Shown in pieces: positions 2,347 to 62,792 of a stretch of 64,000 bases of DNA. Below the pieces are notes generated by a model that saw nothing but the letters and a program-made list of their open reading frames with translations, was not told the origin of the DNA and searched no databases. The DNA comes from an uncultured Algimonas sp. GTDB lineage: Bacteria; Pseudomonadota; Alphaproteobacteria; Caulobacterales; Maricaulaceae. The position numbers and the translations under genes were made by a program. The stretch lies in assembly GCF_947498175.1 (NCBI RefSeq), contig NZ_CANMJB010000002.1:62001-126000 (forward strand). Reading direction: 5' to 3'. The stretch's first letter is position 1, and the number at the start of each line of letters is the position of its first letter.

Positions 2347-3030
2347 TTAATTTCGCAAACCCAATGATTTCAACGCCGAGCGCGGGCCGATTAAGGGGCA
2401 TAAACGCGGATGGATTGCATTCGGCCCCGTTTCAGGGCCCTGCTCCGTTTCAGGGCCGTATTCCGTTTCAGGGGCGTCGAACGCTTCGACGCGCCATCGC
2501 GCCGTGCGCCGCGTGAACACCGCCGGGCCGGGCCGCATCGCTCGCGTCAACAGGTCGTGCACCCGGGCCGGCCGGCTCGACGTGTCGGCGAAATCGACAT
2601 GGTGGTGCGCCAGCACCAGCCGCCCACCCGGTGCCAGCCGCAACCGCCGGCCGAGCCGGGCGATCTCCCGCGGCGTCAGGTAATAGAGGACTTCCGCGAT
2701 CACGATCAGGTCGAACGGCGTATCCGGCGCGCCGTCCGGCAACAGCGCCCGTTCGATGCTGACGCGCGGACTGCCGGCGCGCGCCCGGGTCAGGGCCACC
2801 GCGCTGGGCGCGCCGTCCAGCGCGTGCAGGCGCAGCGCCCGCGCCGCGAGCAGGCGCGTGTTCGACCCGTTCCCGCAGCCCAGTTCCAGCCCGCGCCCGC
2901 GCGTGCGGCCGCAGGCGTGGGCGACGGCGCGACGCTTCACCGCTTCGTCGCGGCGCTCATACGTTCCCCACGGGTCGGGATCGGCCCGGAACACGGCCTC
3001 GAACCCGTCGATGCGGATCGGGGCGCTCAC
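2347..3030 (-). CDS. NodS-like/class I SAM-dependent methyltransferase
   Basis: LELGCGNGSNTRLLAARALRLHALDGAPSAV motif I region; DLIVIAEVLYYLT; overlaps upstream gene by ATGA. Confidence 0.82.
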   Translation of the reverse strand: MSAPIRIDGFEAVFRADPDPWGTYERRDEAVKRRAVAHACGRTRGRGLELGCGNGSNTRLLAARALRLHALDGAPSAVALTRARAGSPRVSIERALLPDGAPDTPFDLIVIAEVLYYLTPREIARLGRRLRLAPGGRLVLAHHHVDFADTSSRPARVHDLLTRAMRPGPAVFTRRTARWRVEAFDAPETEYGPETEQGPETGPNAIHPRLCPLIGPRSALKSLGLRN

Positions 3031-3659
3031 AGGTGGAACCGTTCCACCGGCGCGGTGAAGCGCTGGAACAGAGGCTGGTCGATGGCGAAATTCCAGTCCG
3101 CATCCGTGATCGCGCCCAGCTGCGTGGCGTAGTGCAACAGCGCTTCGGCCTTGCGCACGCGGTAGGGCGCGATGTCGATCGCCAGCTCGGCATCCGGCGG
3201 CGGGCGGCGGCCGTCTTCATGCGGCCAGACCAGATAGTTCAGTACCCGCGCCCGCGTCCGGCCCCGGCATATATGGTGCGCCGCGCGGTGGTCGGCATGG
3301 TTGTCGAAAGGCGACGGCAGGGCGACCGCGTCGAAGGGCCGGGACAGCAGCGCGTCGAGCCGGTCCGGCCGGTCCCACCGGTCCGATCCGCCGTCCGGCA
3401 GGTCCATGAAATGCACCCGGTCCCCGGCCACGCCCAGATGGGCCAGCGCGGCCCGGCTTTCGCGGCGGCGCGCGGCGCGCAGGCGGTGCGGCGGATAGGC
3501 CGCCGATCCCGGATGGGACGCCGCGCCGTCGCTGACGATGGCGACCGTGACCCGCCCGCCTTGCGCGCGAACGTGCTGGATCAACCCGCCGCAGCCGATC
3601 ACCTCGTCGTCCGGATGCGGCGCGACGACCAGCAGGTCGCTGATGGTCGCAGGGTTCAT
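3027..3659 (-). CDS. PIG-L/LmbE-family deacetylase
   Basis: LLVVAPHPDDEVIGCGGLIQHVRAQGGRVTVAIVSDGAASHPGS and HADHRAAH motifs. Confidence 0.92.
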   Translation of the reverse strand: MNPATISDLLVVAPHPDDEVIGCGGLIQHVRAQGGRVTVAIVSDGAASHPGSAAYPPHRLRAARRRESRAALAHLGVAGDRVHFMDLPDGGSDRWDRPDRLDALLSRPFDAVALPSPFDNHADHRAAHHICRGRTRARVLNYLVWPHEDGRRPPPDAELAIDIAPYRVRKAEALLHYATQLGAITDADWNFAIDQPLFQRFTAPVERFHL

Positions 3660-4741
3660 GCCGTGTTGAAGTCCAGACCGCCCGTCGGTCCGTTCGCCAG
3701 CACGGCTTCGGCGACCGCGTCCAGACTGCCGTCCGGGTTGGGCTGGCGGATATAGACGGCCAGGTCAGACAGGTGCGTGGCCAGCGGATGCGGGTGCATC
3801 AGGCCCGACAGGCCGACGGCGCGCTGCACGCGCATGATCTGGCGTTCCGCGCACTCCAGCACGCGGTGCCGCGCCGCGTCCACGCGCGGCAGCAGGTCCG
3901 GATCGGACGGCTCGTAGGCATGGGCGGCCATCATCACCGCGTCGATGGCGGTCTGGGCCTCCGAGAAACTTTCGGCGATGCGGCGCCGTTGCACCGGGTG
4001 CCCGGCGCGTTCGCGTTCCGTCAGCGCCGCCACCAGCCGGTCGTGCAATCCCGCCACCGCGCCCGCCTGCACGGCGGCGAAACGAAGCCCGCCGCCGGAA
4101 AAGTGCGGCTGGCGCTGATACAGCCCCGGTCCGCCCACGGGACCGGCGCGCGCCGGGCGCGCTCCGTCCCAGCTTACGATATGGGTTTCCGAACGCTGCA
4201 TCCCGACCGGCTGCCACCAGCTGCGGTCCGTGCGCGATGTCGCCTCGTCCAGTTCCACCAGCCACATCCGCACATGGTCCGGACTGTCGGCGCGGGTCGT
4301 GACCAGCGCGTGGGTCAGCAGCCCCGCGCCCGAGGCGAAGCTCTTGGCCCCGCGCAGGCGGCCCTCGTCCTCGCGCAGCGGATTGCCGCGATGGTCGTTG
4401 TTCCAGACCCCCGCGCGGTGGCCCCGGCGCTGGGCGGTTTCGGCCCAGCCGCGCTGGTCTTCGCTGCCATAGAGGCGGACCAGTTGCAGCGCGTTGACAT
4501 GGCCTTCGAACAGGCGGCCAAGTGCGGCGTCTTTTCGCCCCGCCGCGATCATGCGGCGGATGGTGCGCGCGACGCTGGCGGGATCGTCATAGGTCAGGAT
4601 GTCGTCCGTGCCGAGCGCGGCGAAGCGGGATTGCAGTCCCTCCGGCGTGAACGGCAGGCGCGGGTCGTCGGGCCTGTCGTCGGCCAGTTTTCCGGCTGGG
4701 GCGGAGTCCGCGTCCGACGACCTGTTGCGAAGATCGGGCAT
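3656..4741 (-). CDS. Acyl-CoA dehydrogenase-like flavoprotein
   Basis: LREDEGRLRGAKSFASGAGLLTHALVTTRA, ERQIMRVQRAVGLSGLMHPHPLATHLSDLAVYIRQPNPDGSLDAV; overlaps PIG-L gene by ATGA. Confidence 0.75.
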   Translation of the reverse strand: MPDLRNRSSDADSAPAGKLADDRPDDPRLPFTPEGLQSRFAALGTDDILTYDDPASVARTIRRMIAAGRKDAALGRLFEGHVNALQLVRLYGSEDQRGWAETAQRRGHRAGVWNNDHRGNPLREDEGRLRGAKSFASGAGLLTHALVTTRADSPDHVRMWLVELDEATSRTDRSWWQPVGMQRSETHIVSWDGARPARAGPVGGPGLYQRQPHFSGGGLRFAAVQAGAVAGLHDRLVAALTERERAGHPVQRRRIAESFSEAQTAIDAVMMAAHAYEPSDPDLLPRVDAARHRVLECAERQIMRVQRAVGLSGLMHPHPLATHLSDLAVYIRQPNPDGSLDAVAEAVLANGPTGGLDFNTA

Positions 4742-5847
4742 CAGACCGCCGCCATCTGCCGGGCGGGCGCGTCCATTTCGCGCGCAAGGATCGCGCGCGC
4801 CTGATCCAGCGCCATGTCGGGGGTTAATTGCGGATCGGGCAGGGCCTGCGTGACAAAGGCGTCGGCGGAACGGGCCCGGTTCCAGGCCCGCTGCACGGCC
4901 ATCCGGTCCAGCCCGAGCCGGTCGGCCGCCCGCGCGACCCGGCCGGCATCGTCATGGGCGAAGCCCCGGCGCAATTCCGCCGACAGCTGGTAGAGGTGCA
5001 GATAGCGGCGCGGATCGACGACCTTGAAAGGCTCGCCGCGCGCGGCCTGTGCGTCCTCGCGCACCAGCGCTTCGGCCAGCCCGCCGCACGCCCGGCCGGT
5101 GCGGCGCGAACTGGTCAGCACGCGCACGGACCGGTCCTGGCGCACGCGGTAGCCCCAGCGGCGGGCCTCGGCGACCATGCGCGTATCCTCGTCGCTGGGA
5201 ACGGACGGGCAGCCGCCGATGGCGTAGTAGACGTCGCGGCGCAGGGCGATCGACGCGCCGTAGCCCTGGGGGTGGGGATCGGGACTGTCATGGGCGACCG
5301 GGTCGATGCGGCGGCGCGCCCGGTGCAGGTCGTGGTAATGATGCTCGTGCGGGGCGCGGATGACGTTGCCCTGATTGTCGTCGCGCCAGATGTCGCCGCA
5401 GACCATGTCGGCCTCGCCCATCAGGGCGCGCGTTGCGCTCAGCCAATGGCGGTCCACCAGCGTGTCGGCGTCGGTCGTGAACAGGATCGCCTCCTCGACG
5501 GGAAAGGCGCGCGTGCCTTCCTGCAGCGCGGCCCGGCGCACCCGGCCGGCATGCGGCTGCGGATGGGCGGGCAGGTCCAGGATGCGGATCTCCACCGGGA
5601 AATGGCGTTTTCGTTCTTCGAGGATGTCGCGGCTGTCGTCGCCGTTTCCGTCCAGTGCGACGACGAGGCAGCCGCGCGGGTCGCGCAGGTCCCGGAACGC
5701 CGTCGCCAGCGCCGACAGAAAGCCGGGCAGTCGGCGCGCCTCGGCCTTGGCGGGCACGCAGACGATGCAGGGCGCGCGGTCATAGGCGCGCGGCCCGTAG
5801 CGGCCCGTGCGGGGCGGGACGAAGTCATATAGGTCGGCGTCGTTCAT
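4741..5847 (-). CDS. Glycosyltransferase family 2
   Basis: CIVCVPAKAEARRLPGFLSAL..., TTDADTLVDRHWL, GYGASIALRRDVYYAIGGCPSVPSDEDTRMV; TGATG overlap with next gene. Confidence 0.85.
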   Translation of the reverse strand: MNDADLYDFVPPRTGRYGPRAYDRAPCIVCVPAKAEARRLPGFLSALATAFRDLRDPRGCLVVALDGNGDDSRDILEERKRHFPVEIRILDLPAHPQPHAGRVRRAALQEGTRAFPVEEAILFTTDADTLVDRHWLSATRALMGEADMVCGDIWRDDNQGNVIRAPHEHHYHDLHRARRRIDPVAHDSPDPHPQGYGASIALRRDVYYAIGGCPSVPSDEDTRMVAEARRWGYRVRQDRSVRVLTSSRRTGRACGGLAEALVREDAQAARGEPFKVVDPRRYLHLYQLSAELRRGFAHDDAGRVARAADRLGLDRMAVQRAWNRARSADAFVTQALPDPQLTPDMALDQARAILAREMDAPARQMAAV

Positions 5848-6077
5848 GATCCGGCTCTCCCATGTTCCTGTCCGCAGGCGGTTTCCCGGACAGTTTCTCA
5901 GTCAGACAGTTTTCGGGCGGTCCGCCCCGACCGGGAGCCGGACGGATGTCGCCACCTTGTATTACGAACGAGGCGGCGATCCGTTCGCGGCCAAATCCGA
6001 ACCGAATGCCTGCGGTTAAGCGGTCGCGTTCGAAAACAGCCGCGGACTTATCAACGCCTTCGAAGGATTTTGCGATT

Positions 6078-7504
<1,427 letters not shown>

Positions 7505-7508
<4 letters not shown>

Positions 7509-10081
7509 GCGCCGTCCAGGATGGCGGCGACGGCATTCGACAGCGACGTGTCGTCGATCGGCTTGGTCAGCACGCGGGTGCCGTCGAGCTCCGCCGGAAT
7601 ATCCAGCCCGGAGCCGTAGCCCGTGACGAACAGGAACGGCACGCCGTCCGTCTTCAGGCGGCGGGCGATGTCGAAGGACACGACCCCGCGCAGGTTCATG
7701 TCCAGCACGGCGAAGTCGAACGTCTCCCGGTCGAGCATTCGCATCGCTTCCTTGACCGTGCTGCAGGTCTCGACCACCTCCGCGCCCAGCTCGGTCAGGC
7801 TCTCCACCATGTCCATGGCCAGCACCAGATTGTCCTCGACCAGCAGCACGCGGCGGTCGCTGGCCGCCATCTCGACCTTGCCGATCATGCCGACGACGCC
7901 GCCGTCCGGCGCGGTCTCGTCCTCGCTGATTTCCGTCAACGTATCGGGCGGCAGGGTGAAGTCGAAGGTCACGCCGCCTTCCGGGTAGGCCAGATCGGCG
8001 GTGCCGTCGAATTCGTAGGGTATGGCGCGTTCGATCAGCGACCGGCCGAAGCCCTGGCGCTCCGGTTCCGTCACGCGCGGCCCGCCCAGTTCCTGCCAGT
8101 TGAAGGCCAGCCCGGCGTCCGAAAGCGACCAGCGCGCCCGCACCAGCCCGTCCGGCGTGCTGAGCGCTCCGTATTTGGCGGCGTTGGTGACGACTTCGTG
8201 GAAGACGAGCGCGACGATCGGCGCGACATCCGGGCGCAGGCCGATGCGCGGCCCAGCGAGCAGGTATTGCGCGCCGTCCGGGCTGGCATAGGGTTTGAGC
8301 TCGGTTTCCAGGATGCGGCGCAGCGAAACGCCCTTCATCGTGTTCGACACGGCCAGGTCGTGCGCGGCGGCCAGGGCCGCGATGCGCTGCTCCAGCGCCT
8401 GCGCGTAGCTTTCCAGCGAGGCGGACGAGGACTTGGCCTGCCGCGACAGCGAACGGATCAGGGCGAGGATGTTCTTCACCCGGTGATTGAGTTCGGCGAT
8501 CATCAGGTCCTGCTGGCGCTGGTGGTTGACCAGGTCCTTGTGGCGCAGCATCTGCGCGCGCTCGCCCTTGGCCGTGATCTGGGTCAGCAGGATCTGCAGT
8601 TCGCGCCCGGCCTCCTTGTCGAAGGCGGACCAGTCCATGCTCCAGCCGTCCTGTTCTTCCAGATAGGCGGCGAAGCTCTGGCGCGGGTGCAGGCGGGCGC
8701 CAAAATGGCCGGTGACGATGGTCTTTTCCGGCTTGCCGGCCCAGTTGACCTTGCGGGTCTTGCCGTCCCGGAAGAACATGAGCTGCAGCGGGTAGGCCGC
8801 CGTGCAGCGGATCAGCATGCAGCCGGCCGAATGGCCGGCATCCGCGTCGCCCACCCATTTCCCGTGCACCAGCGACGACGTGCTCTCGATCAGGTCTTCT
8901 TCGTCGGGCTTGCGCGCCGCGATCACGCGAATGAGGTCGGAAGACGGTGTGGAGCCCAGGACCTGCACCCGGTCGTCGCGGATGACCGCGACGCCGTCGC
9001 TTTCGACGACACCTTGCAGGATCGGGCCGAGGTCCGCGAAGGCGTGCAGCAGATCGGTCGCCGCGTCGGTTTCGGCCAGGATCCGGCTGCGGCTCTGGCC
9101 CGCCATGGCCCGGGCCGAGGACCGTTCGACCTCGATCTTCTGCTGGATGACGAGGGAGATGAGCTGCCCGAACAGTTCGACCGCGATGCGCAGGTCCGAT
9201 CCGATCGTCTTGTCGCTCATATGGTGGCAGGCGAACATCCCCCACAGGCGTCCCGCGACCACCAGCCCGATGGTCAGCGTCGCGCCGACGTTCATGTTCT
9301 TCAGATATTCGATATGGATGGGCGAAACGCCGCGCAGATGCGCCAGGCCGAGGTCGAGCGGCGGCAGGTCATCGGTCACGGCCAGCACGGGCACGGGGTC
9401 GGCCGCGACGTCCGTCAGGATGCGGACGGGGTTCTTGATCTGCAGCGCCCGCGCCTGGACCGGCACGTCCCAGGCCGGGTAACGCAAGCCGAGAAAGCTG
9501 TCGGCCTTGGCGGCACGCGATTCGGCCACGACTTCGCCGTCGCCATTGTCGGCATAACGGTAGGCCTTGACGCGGTCATAGCCCGTCAGATCCCGCAGGC
9601 CGTGCGTGCAGACCTTCAGCAGGCCCTGGATCGTGCGCTGGTGGCTGGCCTTGTCGAGCAGGACGCGCATGCGTTCGACCGGCGAGCGGCGGTCCTCGCG
9701 CGGCGGCTCGGCCGGCTCGAATTCGATCACGGCGAGCTTGTCCGGGTTGCGGTGCGCGAACAGCTCCACCCGGACGCCGTCGCGCATCATCGACCCGACA
9801 CGTTCGCGCTGGCGCGCCGCCGTGGACATGCTCAGCATGTTGCGGATGTCGTGGACGAGCTGGCGCCCCAGCAATTCGACGAAATCCGTGCCCAGCAGGG
9901 TGCGCGCCGGAAGGCCGAGCACGTCGGCCGTGTTCGCGCTCGCATAGTCGATGCGGACCATGTCGAGATCCCCGGCCAGCAGGCAGCCGAACGGCTGGAT
10001 CTGTCCGGGCGTATGGATCGGTTCGGCGTCGCAATTGTCGAGCGCGAGCTGTTCGTCCTGACTCAGAAAGGCTTTGGCCAT
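7505..10081 (-). CDS. bphP: Bacteriophytochrome: PAS-GAF-PHY photosensor, HWE-type histidine kinase, C-terminal receiver
   Basis: DNCDAEPIHTPGQIQPFG with N-terminal Cys17; YPAWDVPVQARAL (DIP-like motif); ELNHRVKNILALIRSLSRQA; receiver VLLVEDNLVLAMDMV...FAVLDMNLRG...TKPID. Confidence 0.93.
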
Positions 10082-10247
10082 CCGTTCCTCGATCTATTGG
10101 GCCGCGCCGTCCATCGCAGACTTGAGCGCGCCTGTTAACAAAGCGGTCCGGCGGGCGATAGGGCGCCATCGCAGCCCTTTCCTACGGGCTCTGAAGCGGA
10201 GCGTTATCCTCTGGCCACACGCCCGCCAAGCGCTATAGGCCACGGTC

Positions 10248-10835
10248 GTGAGCGAATTGAGACAAAGATTGCGCCGGGACACGGCGGACAGCCACAATCG
10301 CATCGATGCGCGCATGGGTTCGCTCGACCTGACGACCGTGGGCGGCCTGTCGAAGCTCCTGTCGGCGCATTACCTGGTGCAAAGCCTGTTCGGCGCCCTG
10401 GCGGACGAGAGGTTGGAGTTCCTGCCGGAGCTGAGGCGCGATCTCGATGCGCTCGGCACGGCCCGTCCGGTCTGGACGGACCCGCCGGGCGCGCAGGGCG
10501 TCCATCCGCTGGGCTACCGCTACGTCGTGTCGGGCAGCCATATGGGGGCGCGGCTGCTTCACAGAGACTGGATGCAAGCACGCGACCCGCAGGTCCGTGC
10601 CGCCGGACGCTACCTGCAGGCCAATCTGGACAGTCGCGCCTGGCCGGACCTGCTGGCGGAAATGAAGGCGGCGGACCCGGCCGCCATCGACGCCGACCAT
10701 GTCGTGGCGTCGGCGAACCGGGTGTTCGAAGCCTATGACCGGGCCGCGACGGAGCTGGGGATCGGTCGGGGCGGGGGTGGCCGTCCGGCCGCTCCGCCTC
10801 AGTCCGCCGGGGTCGGGCCGAAGACGAGCGACTGA
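10248..10835 (+). CDS. bphO: Bacterial heme oxygenase (biliverdin-producing, BphO-like)
   Basis: 195 aa, RLRRDTADSHNRIDARM, YRYVVSGSHMGARLL; GTG start; divergent from bacteriophytochrome gene. Confidence 0.8.
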   Translation: MSELRQRLRRDTADSHNRIDARMGSLDLTTVGGLSKLLSAHYLVQSLFGALADERLEFLPELRRDLDALGTARPVWTDPPGAQGVHPLGYRYVVSGSHMGARLLHRDWMQARDPQVRAAGRYLQANLDSRAWPDLLAEMKAADPAAIDADHVVASANRVFEAYDRAATELGIGRGGGGRPAAPPQSAGVGPKTSD

Positions 10836-11279: not shown

Positions 11280-11660
11280 ATGACATCGATCGCCAAACCG
11301 TCTCCGGCCGAAACCGCCATCCTCCAAGTGCTGTGGGAGCATGAGCCCTGCAGCGTGAAGGCCATTCACGAACGTCTCAGCCAGACCAAATCCGTCGGAT
11401 ACACGACGACGCTCAAGCAGATCCAGCGCATGCACGACAAGGGCCTCGTCACCCGCGTGCCGGGCGAGGGAAAATCCTACGATTACAGCGCGGCCGTGGA
11501 CGAGGCGTCCACCAAGTCGCGGCTGTTCGACCGCTTCGTCAAGACGGCGTTCGAGGATTCCGTGCCCGATCTGGTGATGCACGCGCTCGGCACCGACAAG
11601 GCCAGCCCGGACGATATCGAGAAGATCCGGGAGTTCCTCGAAAAGCTCGACAAGACATAA
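11280..11660 (+). CDS. BlaI/MecI/CopY family transcriptional repressor
   Basis: 126 aa; SPAETAILQVLWEHEPCSVKAIHERLSQTKSVGYTTTLKQIQRMHDKGLVTR. Confidence 0.93.
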   Translation: MTSIAKPSPAETAILQVLWEHEPCSVKAIHERLSQTKSVGYTTTLKQIQRMHDKGLVTRVPGEGKSYDYSAAVDEASTKSRLFDRFVKTAFEDSVPDLVMHALGTDKASPDDIEKIREFLEKLDKT

Positions 11661-11721
11661 GCGCATCGCGCTCTAGAACCGCCCGAAGGACCGGGCGGAC
11701 AGGACATAAGGGGAAGACGCC

Positions 11722-14127
11722 ATGTCGCTCAACATTACCGCACTTTGGGACGCGCTCGGCTGGGCAATCCTGCACAGTCTCTGGCAAGGCGCGCTGATCG
11801 GGCTTGTCGTCTGGCTGCTGCGGACGCTGGCGACGCCGCGTCGCGCCTGGCTCGGCTATCTGATCGGCATGGGCGGTCTGGTCGCGACGCTGGCCGCCTT
11901 CCTGGCGACCTTCGTCGTTCTGACCTACCGCCACGCCGCAAGCTGGACGCCCATCACGTTTGCAAGCCCGGCCGGGGCGGGCCCAGCCGACATGGGCCCA
12001 GCCGATATGGGCCACGCCGGTGCAGGCCTCGGCGACGCCGCATCGGTCGGCATGACCGGCATGAGCTTCAACGTGTTGCCCGTTGCTGGACCGCAGGGCG
12101 ACCTGGCCGCGGCCATCGTGCCGTGGCTCGGCATGATCTGGGCGGTCGGTTTCGTCTTTCTCGGCCTGCAGGCCTACCGTGCCTGGGCGCTGACGCGCGA
12201 ACTGGCGACGCAGGGTCTGCGCACGCCCGGCGACCGCTGGACCGCGCGGTTCGACGCTCTGATCGCCCGCAGCCGGGCGACCGCGCGTGTGCGTCTCTTC
12301 GTGTCGGACCGGGTCGCGGGGCCGATGACGGTCGGCGCCTGGCGTCCGGTCGTGCTGGTGCCGCTCGGGTTCCTGACGTCGCTTCCGCCCGCGCAGGTCG
12401 AAGCCATATTGCTGCACGAACTGGCGCATATCCGCCGACACGACTTCCTGATGGGACTGATCCAGACGGCGATCCGCACCGTGCTCTATTTCAACCCGGC
12501 CGTGATCCTCATGTCGCGTCAGATCGACGAGGACCGCGAACAGGCCTGTGACGACGTGGCGGTGTCCGTCACCGGCGCACCGGACGCGCTGGTGCGCGGG
12601 CTCGCCGCCTTGCGTCTGGGCGCAGAACGGCCGATGGCGCGCGACATGGCGCCGAACGCCGCGCTGGCCATGGCGGCCGATGGCGGCGCCGGGGCTGGCG
12701 GACCGGGGGCAGGTGGATCGGGGGATGGTGGCCCGTTGCTGGCGCGCCTGAACCGCCTGATGGGACAGCCAGCGCCGCGCCGCGCCTCCAACCGCCTGTC
12801 GGCCGCGGCCGTCTCGGCCCTGATGCTGGGCACGGCCGCCTGCGGCACCGTGTCGATGGCGCAACCGCAAGCCGACGCCGCGGCGACCGGTCAGTCCGCG
12901 CAAGGTCTTTCCTCCGAGGGCCACTCCGCCGAAGGTCTGCCCGACACGGTCGTGCTGGCCGACGCCGCGAACGCGGTCGTCTCGACCAGGACCGACGCGC
13001 CGAAGGTCTGGACCACCCCTCCGAGCGTCGTTCCGCCGGTCGTCTCGGTCGGAAGTGACTCCCAGAACGTGTGGATCGCCCCTCCGGGCGTCATTCCGCC
13101 GATGCCGGTCATGCCGCCTATGCCCGATATGCCCCCCATGCCGCAAATGCCCGACGTTCCGAACGAGCCGGCCCCGCCCGCGCCCGATTTCGCCGACTAT
13201 GGCAGCGAAGTGGCGTTCGAAACCGCGATGGAGGCTTGGAGCGAGAAGATGGAAGACTGGTCCGAGCGGTTCGAGGACAGCTTCGACGCCGACTGGGAAT
13301 GGCGCATGGAGGCGTGGGAGGACGAGGTCGAGGCCCGCTTCGAAGGCGACTGGGAAGCGAAGATGGAAGCCTGGGGCGAGAAGATGGAGGACTGGGCCGA
13401 AATCGTCGAGACCGTCTCCGAAGATCATGCCGAGGCGATGGTTCGGAAATGGGTGAATGTGGACACTGACGCCATCCGCGAGCAGGCCCTGCGATCGGTC
13501 GAGCAGTCGCTTGACCATCTCAAAGGCGAAGCCGACCGGGCCAAAGCCCAGGTGGACCGCGAAGCCGACCGGGCCAAAGCCCAGGTGGACCGCGAAGCCT
13601 CCCTTGCCGAAAGGGCCAGGGACAGGGCGCAGCACGAAAAGGCGCGCGCCGAACGTGCCAAGGGCGAAGCAAAGCGCGAGAAAGCGCGGGCCCAGCGTGC
13701 CAAGGACAGGGCGCAACGCGAGAAAGCGCGGGCCCAGAGCAGGGCGCGGAAGACCCAGGCGAAACATATCGAGGCCTCGAACGGCACGCTCATGATGAAC
13801 GGCCGCCAGATGGACATGGAATCGTTCCATGCCGACTTGGTCGAGGCCCTGGTGTCCGACGGCTTGATCCCGAACAGGAACAGCGCAGCCAAAGTGTCTC
13901 TGAGCGACGGGGTCTTCGAAGTCCAGGGTCGCGAGGTTGGTCAGGCCGTGTCCGCTCGCTATGCGGAGATATTCCGGCGGGCCGGCTTCCGTCTCGAAGA
14001 CTGCATCGACATCCGGTTGCGACCGGGTACGATGAGCACGACCTTTTCCGGCAATGCCATCGAGAAAACCCACGAAGACGGGGTAACCATCACGGTCTCC
14101 ACCGCCGGTTACAAACACACCCAGTAA
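11722..14127 (+). CDS. M56-family (BlaR1-like) membrane metallopeptidase with long charged C-terminal extension
   Basis: 801 aa; N-terminal TMs; LLHELAHIRRHDFLMGL zinc motif; C-terminal Pro/Met-rich then W/E- and A/R/K-rich helical repeats. Confidence 0.88.
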   Translation: MSLNITALWDALGWAILHSLWQGALIGLVVWLLRTLATPRRAWLGYLIGMGGLVATLAAFLATFVVLTYRHAASWTPITFASPAGAGPADMGPADMGHAGAGLGDAASVGMTGMSFNVLPVAGPQGDLAAAIVPWLGMIWAVGFVFLGLQAYRAWALTRELATQGLRTPGDRWTARFDALIARSRATARVRLFVSDRVAGPMTVGAWRPVVLVPLGFLTSLPPAQVEAILLHELAHIRRHDFLMGLIQTAIRTVLYFNPAVILMSRQIDEDREQACDDVAVSVTGAPDALVRGLAALRLGAERPMARDMAPNAALAMAADGGAGAGGPGAGGSGDGGPLLARLNRLMGQPAPRRASNRLSAAAVSALMLGTAACGTVSMAQPQADAAATGQSAQGLSSEGHSAEGLPDTVVLADAANAVVSTRTDAPKVWTTPPSVVPPVVSVGSDSQNVWIAPPGVIPPMPVMPPMPDMPPMPQMPDVPNEPAPPAPDFADYGSEVAFETAMEAWSEKMEDWSERFEDSFDADWEWRMEAWEDEVEARFEGDWEAKMEAWGEKMEDWAEIVETVSEDHAEAMVRKWVNVDTDAIREQALRSVEQSLDHLKGEADRAKAQVDREADRAKAQVDREASLAERARDRAQHEKARAERAKGEAKREKARAQRAKDRAQREKARAQSRARKTQAKHIEASNGTLMMNGRQMDMESFHADLVEALVSDGLIPNRNSAAKVSLSDGVFEVQGREVGQAVSARYAEIFRRAGFRLEDCIDIRLRPGTMSTTFSGNAIEKTHEDGVTITVSTAGYKHTQ
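13528..13593 (+). repeat. Perfect 33-bp tandem duplication in M56 gene
   Basis: gaagccgaccgggccaaagcccaggtggaccgc x2 (EADRAKAQVDR x2). Confidence 0.95.
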
Positions 14128-61550: not shown

Positions 61551-62792
61551 CTAGACCTTTGGCGGGGTCTTGCGGCGGACCGGCACCTTGCGCGCCGCCG
61601 GTTTTGCAGGCGTCTTTTCGACCGGCTTGCTCATGTCCTTGGGTGGGAAAAGCTTCTGCAGAACCTGTCCGGCCCAATCGCGGCCGCCAAGGCCGAAGGC
61701 GAGCGAACCTGCCACGGCCGTGCCGATGACGAGCGCACCGAAAGCGGTCGGGATGATGTCTCCGGCCGGGTCGAGCGAAGACAGACCCAGGAAGACGAAG
61801 ATCAGGATCGCGACATAGCGGAACAGTTCCGCGATGCGCGGGCTGATCATACCGGCCATGATGCGGCTGATGAAGTTCGCCAGGAACACGCCGATCATGA
61901 TGAGCACGGCGGCACGCAGCAACTGTCCGCCGAAGGCGACGATGTCGTCGAAGGTGGCCGACAGGAACTCGATGCCCAGAATGTCGAGCGCCGCCGTCAG
62001 GCCGAGCACCGCGATGATCAGGAAGGCCAGATTGCCGGCGACGACGGACGGGGCGAAACGCAGGCCCTTGCCGTCATCGATCGACATCAGCGTGTTGATC
62101 GAATTGTCGAAACCGAGCGTCGGCAGCAACCCCTTGAGGAAGTTCGACACGAACCGTCCGATGAAGATCGCCAAAGCCAGCACCACGGCGGCGCTGATCA
62201 GTTCGGGGATGAAGTCCAGGAAGTCCTGCAGCAGGTTGCTGAGCGGTATGGAAATCTCGTCGATGTCCAGCACGCCGAGCGCCCCGATCAGGACCGGCAC
62301 GATAACGAGAATGAAGATGAGCGTGCCGGCGGCCGATGCAAGCGAACCCTGCGATCCCGTCGCATCTGTAACGCCGAAGCGCGTCATCAGATTGTCGATC
62401 TGCATGGCTCTGAGCGTCGTCGTCGTGGCGTTCTGCGCGATCTTGGCGATGACGTAGCCGATGCCGAGGATCAGGGCCGCACCGATCAGGTTCGGCAGGA
62501 AGCCCCAGATGTTGCGGAACATGTCGTCGATCGGTCGTCCGTATTCACCGAGTTCGAGGAAGCCGAGGAACGGTGGGACGAAGAACAAGAGCGTCAGCCA
62601 GAAACCGGCCCGTCCCAAGGCGCTGCCCAGATTGCCGCCAGTCGTTCTGGCTTTCGCGCCGAGACGCGTCTTGTTGACGATCGTGGTGATGACGATCTTG
62701 ACGATGAAGGCGATGACGATCGCCACGACGGCAGTGATGACGGCGGCAAGCCAGCCCGGCATCTCCGCCATGAATTGGTTGATCTGGTCCAT
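61551..62792 (-). CDS. CmpX-like mechanosensitive channel family protein (conserved TM-helix repeats)
   Basis: 413 aa; repeated LPNLIGAALILGIGYVIAKIAQN / IPELISAAVVLALAIFIGRFVSNFLKGLL / LGGRDWAGQVLQKL. Confidence 0.85.
   Translation of the reverse strand: MDQINQFMAEMPGWLAAVITAVVAIVIAFIVKIVITTIVNKTRLGAKARTTGGNLGSALGRAGFWLTLLFFVPPFLGFLELGEYGRPIDDMFRNIWGFLPNLIGAALILGIGYVIAKIAQNATTTTLRAMQIDNLMTRFGVTDATGSQGSLASAAGTLIFILVIVPVLIGALGVLDIDEISIPLSNLLQDFLDFIPELISAAVVLALAIFIGRFVSNFLKGLLPTLGFDNSINTLMSIDDGKGLRFAPSVVAGNLAFLIIAVLGLTAALDILGIEFLSATFDDIVAFGGQLLRAAVLIMIGVFLANFISRIMAGMISPRIAELFRYVAILIFVFLGLSSLDPAGDIIPTAFGALVIGTAVAGSLAFGLGGRDWAGQVLQKLFPPKDMSKPVEKTPAKPAARKVPVRRKTPPKV

Follow-up and report, generated by a model that had tools for sequence, protein, structure and literature searches.

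A conserved four-gene cassette in an uncultured Algimonas sp. and distant relatives that may build an unusual amino-sugar glycoside

We analysed 64,000 nucleotides of contig NZ_CANMJB010000002.1 from an uncultured Algimonas sp. (Alphaproteobacteria; positions 62,001 to 126,000), hereafter the window, with a focus on a four-gene cassette for which an earlier note had proposed a tight operon making an undescribed sugar-type metabolite. All four open reading frames (ORFs) of that proposal were confirmed. They lie consecutively on the minus strand, from 5847 to 2347, and encode a family 2 glycosyltransferase (GT), a flavoenzyme resembling acyl-CoA dehydrogenases (ACAD), a PIG-L protein and a NodS-like methyltransferase (Table 1). 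The coding-strand junctions read TGATG, ATGA and GTGA, with overlaps of 1, 4 and 4 bases; the first two agree with the earlier reading, whereas the third had been given as ATGA. The G+C content at third codon positions is high in every gene (0.84–0.88), which argues that all four are truly coding. Pfam assigned the deacetylase to PIG-L (PF02585, E 6e-28) and the methyltransferase to NodS (PF05401, 9.6e-9) and Methyltransf_12 (2e-10). Matches to Glycos_transf_2 (8.9e-5) and Acyl-CoA_dh_M (5.3e-6) fell narrowly short of the gathering cut-offs, and later homology profiles confirmed the GT and ACAD assignments of genes 1 and 2. The arrangement suggests that the four genes are co-translated.

Table 1. 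Cassette genes and upstream spacer in the window, and loci of relatives that carry an FNR/FixK-like box
Feature	Position	Strand	Remarks
Gene 1: family 2 glycosyltransferase, GT-A fold, soluble	4741..5847	-	368 aa
Gene 2: ACAD-fold flavoenzyme, probably group-D-type flavin monooxygenase	3656..4741	-	361 aa
Gene 3: PIG-L/LmbE-type N-deacetylase	3027..3659	-	210 aa
Gene 4: NodS-like S-adenosylmethionine methyltransferase	2347..3030	-	227 aa, GTG start
Spacer 5' of gene 1, toward divergent histidine kinase	5848..6078	.	kinase likely start ATG 6079
Loci with TTGAT-N4-ATCAA box			L026, L042, L049, L053, L054, L058, L063, L064, L067, L070, L072, L074, L082, L088, L089, L094

The cassette is widespread and not private to this genome. 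A scan of one genome collection for the ACAD family gave 428 relatives, 80 loci of which were taken and supplemented with loci from plasmids and other genomes to a total of 94; all four genes are present in about 78 of these ACAD-anchored loci, as counted from the per-locus table. Among sampled Pseudomonadota the ACAD family occurs in 34 of 399 genomes (24 of 213 genera), and 17 of 20 further proteobacterial loci from these 34 genomes hold the complete set. Relatives were found in alpha- and beta/gamma-proteobacteria, with the order mostly ACAD, PIG-L, methyltransferase, GT in beta/gamma-type genomes, and further members come from plasmid records of Deinococcus, Nostoc, Gloeothece and Rubrobacter. 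Many copies are plasmid-borne, and the distribution is patchy, with the cassette in only one of 17 other genomes of the window's genus. A -4 overlap is the usual gap at each junction (GT/ACAD 42, ACAD/PIG-L 62 and PIG-L/methyltransferase 65 of roughly 80 loci); because it recurs at all three, the short overlaps are not a product of chance, and the tight operon proposed earlier holds. At locus L165 the deacetylase and methyltransferase are joined in one ORF. Pairwise distances of the four protein families correlate across 70 loci with Mantel r values of 0.87–0.94, exceeding every permutation. The four proteins thus co-evolve, and their genes form a conserved unit kept across distantly related bacteria.

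The product of the 'acyl-CoA dehydrogenase' gene is probably not a true ACAD, which amends this part of the earlier proposal. Profile-profile alignment with genuine ACADs of related genomes stops at Tyr330; its gap-free extension places the glutamate of the ACAD LEGT motif on Pro334, which lies in a conserved RQPxPD motif and is itself about 95% conserved in the flavoenzyme family. The catalytic glutamate of the C-terminal (Y/L)EGT motif, a hallmark of canonical ACADs, is therefore not present at the aligned position in the family, which makes a dehydrogenase of the medium-chain ACAD (MCAD) type unlikely. The predicted model (AlphaFold; predicted local distance difference test, pLDDT, 89.2; predicted template modelling score 0.90) has flavin monooxygenases as its best structural relatives, and Foldseek placed 5z8t, 5gj7, KijD3, DszC and DnmZ first. 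Profile searches agreed, with the DszC/TdsC monooxygenases as best matches in the PDB and MsuC, KijD3 and DnmZ also ranking well; over PDB and NCBIfam together the best matches were DszC/TdsC and SfnB. An ACAD fold, seen in the model and by Foldseek, that lacks the MCAD-type base is what characterises group D flavin monooxygenases, the class to which the enzyme would belong. No curated family reached its cut-off: the window protein scores 15.7 against a DszC/TdsC/SfnB cut-off of 850 bits, and sulfur-metabolism genes were not noticed nearby. KijD3 and DnmZ, amino-sugar N-oxygenases or nitrososynthases of group D, share the fold but only about 20% identity with the cassette enzyme. They act on dTDP-sugars of antibiotic pathways.

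The remaining three enzymes have intact catalytic motifs. In the PIG-L protein P14, H15, D17, D18, E19, H121, D123 and H124 of the AHPDDE and HxDH motifs are invariant, including the zinc-site residues H15, D18 and H124 and the catalytic D17. Its nearest structures, which share fold and motifs, are deacetylases of substrates of the N-acetylglucosamine (GlcNAc) type, namely diacetylchitobiose deacetylase (7e-22), BshB and MshB, although gene 3 reaches no equivalog cut-off and its genetic context differs. PIG-L was not found in the Rubrobacter plasmid set, which reads NodB-superfamily deacetylase (Polysacc_deac_1, PF01522), ACAD, NodS-like methyltransferase, FAD reductase-like protein and GT. 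Since another deacetylase family here takes the place of the absent PIG-L, this one case supports a sugar de-N-acetylation step. The GT has conserved D126-A-D128 (DxD type) and E220-D221, a predicted GT-A fold (pLDDT 91.8) and no hydrophobic segment (maximum KD19 0.68), and is a soluble enzyme that looks cytosolic. In the methyltransferase D19-P20-W21, E29 and K32 are invariant. Its nearest named structure is NodS (2e-27), with which the DPW...E segment aligns, and it is a clear family member of the uncharacterised structure 4ISC (2e-45 by profile; 9e-73 for the methyltransferase of locus L173), which was deposited as 'Methyltransferase' only and whose chain begins after the DPW motif. The window protein carries a C-terminal extension (2347-2470, minus strand) of about 30 low-complexity residues with GPETE-like repeats that is absent from relatives.

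The combination of a GT2, a sugar N-deacetylase and a NodS-type methyltransferase resembles the logic of rhizobial Nod-factor assembly (NodC/NodB/NodS), a parallel already drawn in the earlier note and strengthened by the NodS structural match and the NodB-superfamily deacetylase of Rubrobacter, the only set with PF01522. The cassette is nevertheless not a Nod system. Its deacetylase in the window is PIG-L rather than NodB, its GT is soluble and without a NodC-family match whereas NodC is a membrane chitin-oligosaccharide synthase, and its methyltransferase scores 44 bits against an equivalog cut-off of 300 for NodS. As the earlier note had stated, no acyltransferase is present: NodA is missing from the window cassette and from the recurrent neighbours checked in relatives. 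Furthermore, the cassette has an additional flavoenzyme, and its hosts are mostly non-symbiotic. A paper describing the four-gene set or a characterised pathway of identical architecture was not found in the literature searched (mainly open-access main texts), consistent with the earlier designation as undescribed.

The genomic context of relatives points to stress physiology, which goes beyond the earlier reading. Of 126 loci (2.2 Mb), 20 have a large KatE-type catalase gene, which often lies in divergent orientation 40–150 bases from the GT; with 21 matches in a class-wide sample of 96 genomes, about one such locus would be expected by chance, even if the genomes were rich in catalases. Ten of the 126 have a Ku or LigD gene close by, and DUF892, BrkB, Dps, Mn-catalase and universal stress proteins are further neighbours. 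At L173, which is probably from Pseudomonas, the start codon of the ACAD gene lies one base past the stop of glgX, downstream of treY, and the gene order agrees with the treY/Z operon PSPTO3125-3130 of P. syringae DC3000, in which the deletion studied ends at glgX (PMC8982409). Sixteen of 116 loci, all Sphingomonas (Table 1), carry a perfect TTGAT-N4-ATCAA box of the CRP/FNR type (FNR/FixK-like), where 0.62 were expected over all loci. The boxes sit 18–94 bases 5' of the cassettes and make up 16 of the 21 such sites in 2.07 Mb; S. phyllosphaerae FA2 has four in 3.9 Mb. EcfG dependence is reported in S. melonis for catalases, Ku, trehalose genes and a regulator of the CRP family (PMC6599016), so that an indirect link to stress may plausibly exist. 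The cassette goes unmentioned in the main texts of papers on the stress regulons of S. melonis, Sphingopyxis and Methylobacterium. An EcfG promoter upstream of the cassette (GGAAC-N16-20-GTT) was not adopted as a general explanation: GGAAC-N16/17-NGTT occurred at five of 94 loci (0.64 expected), the window not among them, and when both strands were searched with a relaxed pattern three of 75 loci matched against 1.8 expected.

We tentatively propose, with a likelihood close to but short of even, that the cassette builds and tailors an amino-sugar glycoside by glycosyl transfer, deacetylation, methylation and flavin-dependent oxidation; the product is probably a chemically unusual amino-sugar compound. 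The cytosolic GT2 would move an N-acetylated sugar, most likely GlcNAc, onto an acceptor, and the PIG-L enzyme would strip the acetyl group to leave a free amine. The ACAD-fold flavoenzyme would then oxidise the sugar; most likely it would work as a flavin monooxygenase that takes the exposed amine to the hydroxylamine, nitrone or nitroso level, with methylation by the NodS-like enzyme before or after this step. Substrates, reaction order and N- rather than O-chemistry are our assignments, and the context suggests that the product may help cells to withstand oxidative, desiccation or micro-oxic stress. A more specific version, in which desiccation- and radiation-tolerant bacteria such as Sphingomonas, Methylobacterium and Deinococcus share a hitherto unknown N-methylated, N-oxygenated amino-sugar glycoside (hydroxylamine or nitrone) as a small molecule that protects against stress, perhaps by trapping radicals or nitric oxide, is a long shot. 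Several observations weigh against the proposal. Foldseek template modelling scores to true ACADs (0.72–0.74) equal those to monooxygenases, 19 family members match the ACAD Pfam C-domain, and no flavin reductase consistently adjoins the cassette. Donor specificity of the GT cannot be read from its predicted model. At several loci of Methylobacterium PIG-L is missing and the ACAD stands alone or with the methyltransferase, so that a different substrate or a second role of the flavoenzyme is conceivable there. The window cassette has no stress genes as direct neighbours, and its spacer contains no stress-type promoter motif (EcfG-type or FNR-type box).

The ACAD fold and Pfam domains of the flavoenzyme could instead belong to a dehydrogenase that introduces a double bond into an aglycone, either a lipid or a thioester, with the other three enzymes putting a methylated amino sugar on the head group; this comes near to the glycoconjugate of the earlier note. 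PIG-L and GT2 pairs (HpnI/HpnK) do act on lipid-linked sugars elsewhere, and there is a weak HpnI match (E 0.084). Such a glycolipid route is unlikely, however, given that the catalytic glutamate is missing throughout the family, the GT has no membrane segment, and the cassette lacks acyl-CoA ligase, acyl carrier protein, thioesterase and electron transfer flavoprotein. We give a similarly small chance to the tailoring of one sugar in a stress-induced surface or storage polysaccharide built by neighbouring GT4, GT28-like, second GT2 and sucrose-phosphate-synthase-like genes. Extra glycosyltransferases recur in 12–16 loci of several classes but are absent from the window and most loci; genes for a flippase, a polymerase or export were not seen to recur among the loci, and all four cassette enzymes look cytosolic.

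A pathway to a low-molecular-weight thiol or redox buffer of the bacillithiol/mycothiol kind would explain the pairing of a GT with a PIG-L deacetylase, the BshB1 profile match (2.2e-11) and the catalase neighbours. It is quite improbable: the scores lie far under the curated cut-offs (BshB 43.9 vs 182.5, MshB 19.9 vs 224), so that the BshB/MshB equivalog of these pathways is lacking, as is a cysteine ligase (MshC/BshC); the cassette also has no acetyltransferase, and its GT belongs to GT2, not GT4. That the four lie together by coincidence, as selfish or drifting genes that make no common product, is barely conceivable, despite their patchy distribution in the genus and many plasmid copies, because it is contradicted by the same families, order and overlaps across phyla, the strong co-evolution and the intact catalytic residues.

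That the four genes have stayed together as an intact unit in several phyla, time and again next to catalase, Ku/LigD and trehalose genes, suggests a metabolite that stress-tolerant bacteria strive to keep. A product bearing an oxidised and methylated amine would represent a novel type of stress compound in bacteria, and in that case the flavoenzyme would be a so far overlooked oxygenase of amino sugars encoded outside antibiotic clusters. In public records the parts are annotated as 'acyl-CoA dehydrogenase' and 'glycosyltransferase', which conceals the pathway. The cassette also offers a likely setting for the orphan structure 4ISC and for the genes just past the studied Pseudomonas trehalose operon.

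Some loci of relatives deviate from the common layout. A lone ACAD gene overlaps a cytochrome b561 gene in Methylobacterium (L101, L102 and L104, at about 9.8–11.5 kb), with no PIG-L or methyltransferase gene nearby. A candidate GT-ACAD fusion in Methylobacterium aquaticum (L118) was discarded since its linker resembles a frame-shifted GT tail, and another, a 780-aa Deinococcus protein, was rejected since its N-terminal 400 aa have no GT profile match. In Deinococcus (L032:6543-8882, L117:5555-7903) the ACAD domain lies behind this 400-aa domain, which has a weak glycoside hydrolase likeness (PF07745, E 0.012, below cut-off) and may connect the flavoenzyme with sugars. Sucrose-phosphate-synthase/phosphatase-like, GT28-like, GT4 and second GT2 genes form a wider recurrent neighbourhood in several classes (L038, L043, L051, L056, L062, L075, L087 and others). 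Sphingomonas-like cassettes on contigs titled Arthrobacter sp. TPD3018 and Bacillus sp. 2B10 (L037, L039) are probably from mislabelled or contaminated records.

Within the window, the cassette is followed on its 3' side by an 800-base spacer and then by genes for an SbtA-type bicarbonate transporter and a PII-like protein (174-1547), an SbtA/SbtB-like pair whose host is presumably a heterotroph. At 1574-1653 and 1808-1901 lie two intergenic repeats, each about 80–95 bp long, of which the genome has many copies (33 matches to the spacer); their hairpin potential is only weakly above that of shuffles. On the 5' side, divergent from the cassette, the histidine kinase gene is followed by that of a bacteriophytochrome (PAS-GAF-PHY-HWE kinase-receiver), which adjoins a divergent heme-oxygenase-like gene (7505-10835). 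Further on, an ORF pair (11280-14127) resembles BlaI/BlaR1, judged by translation alone, and its second member has a long repetitive region rich in Ala, Arg and Lys.

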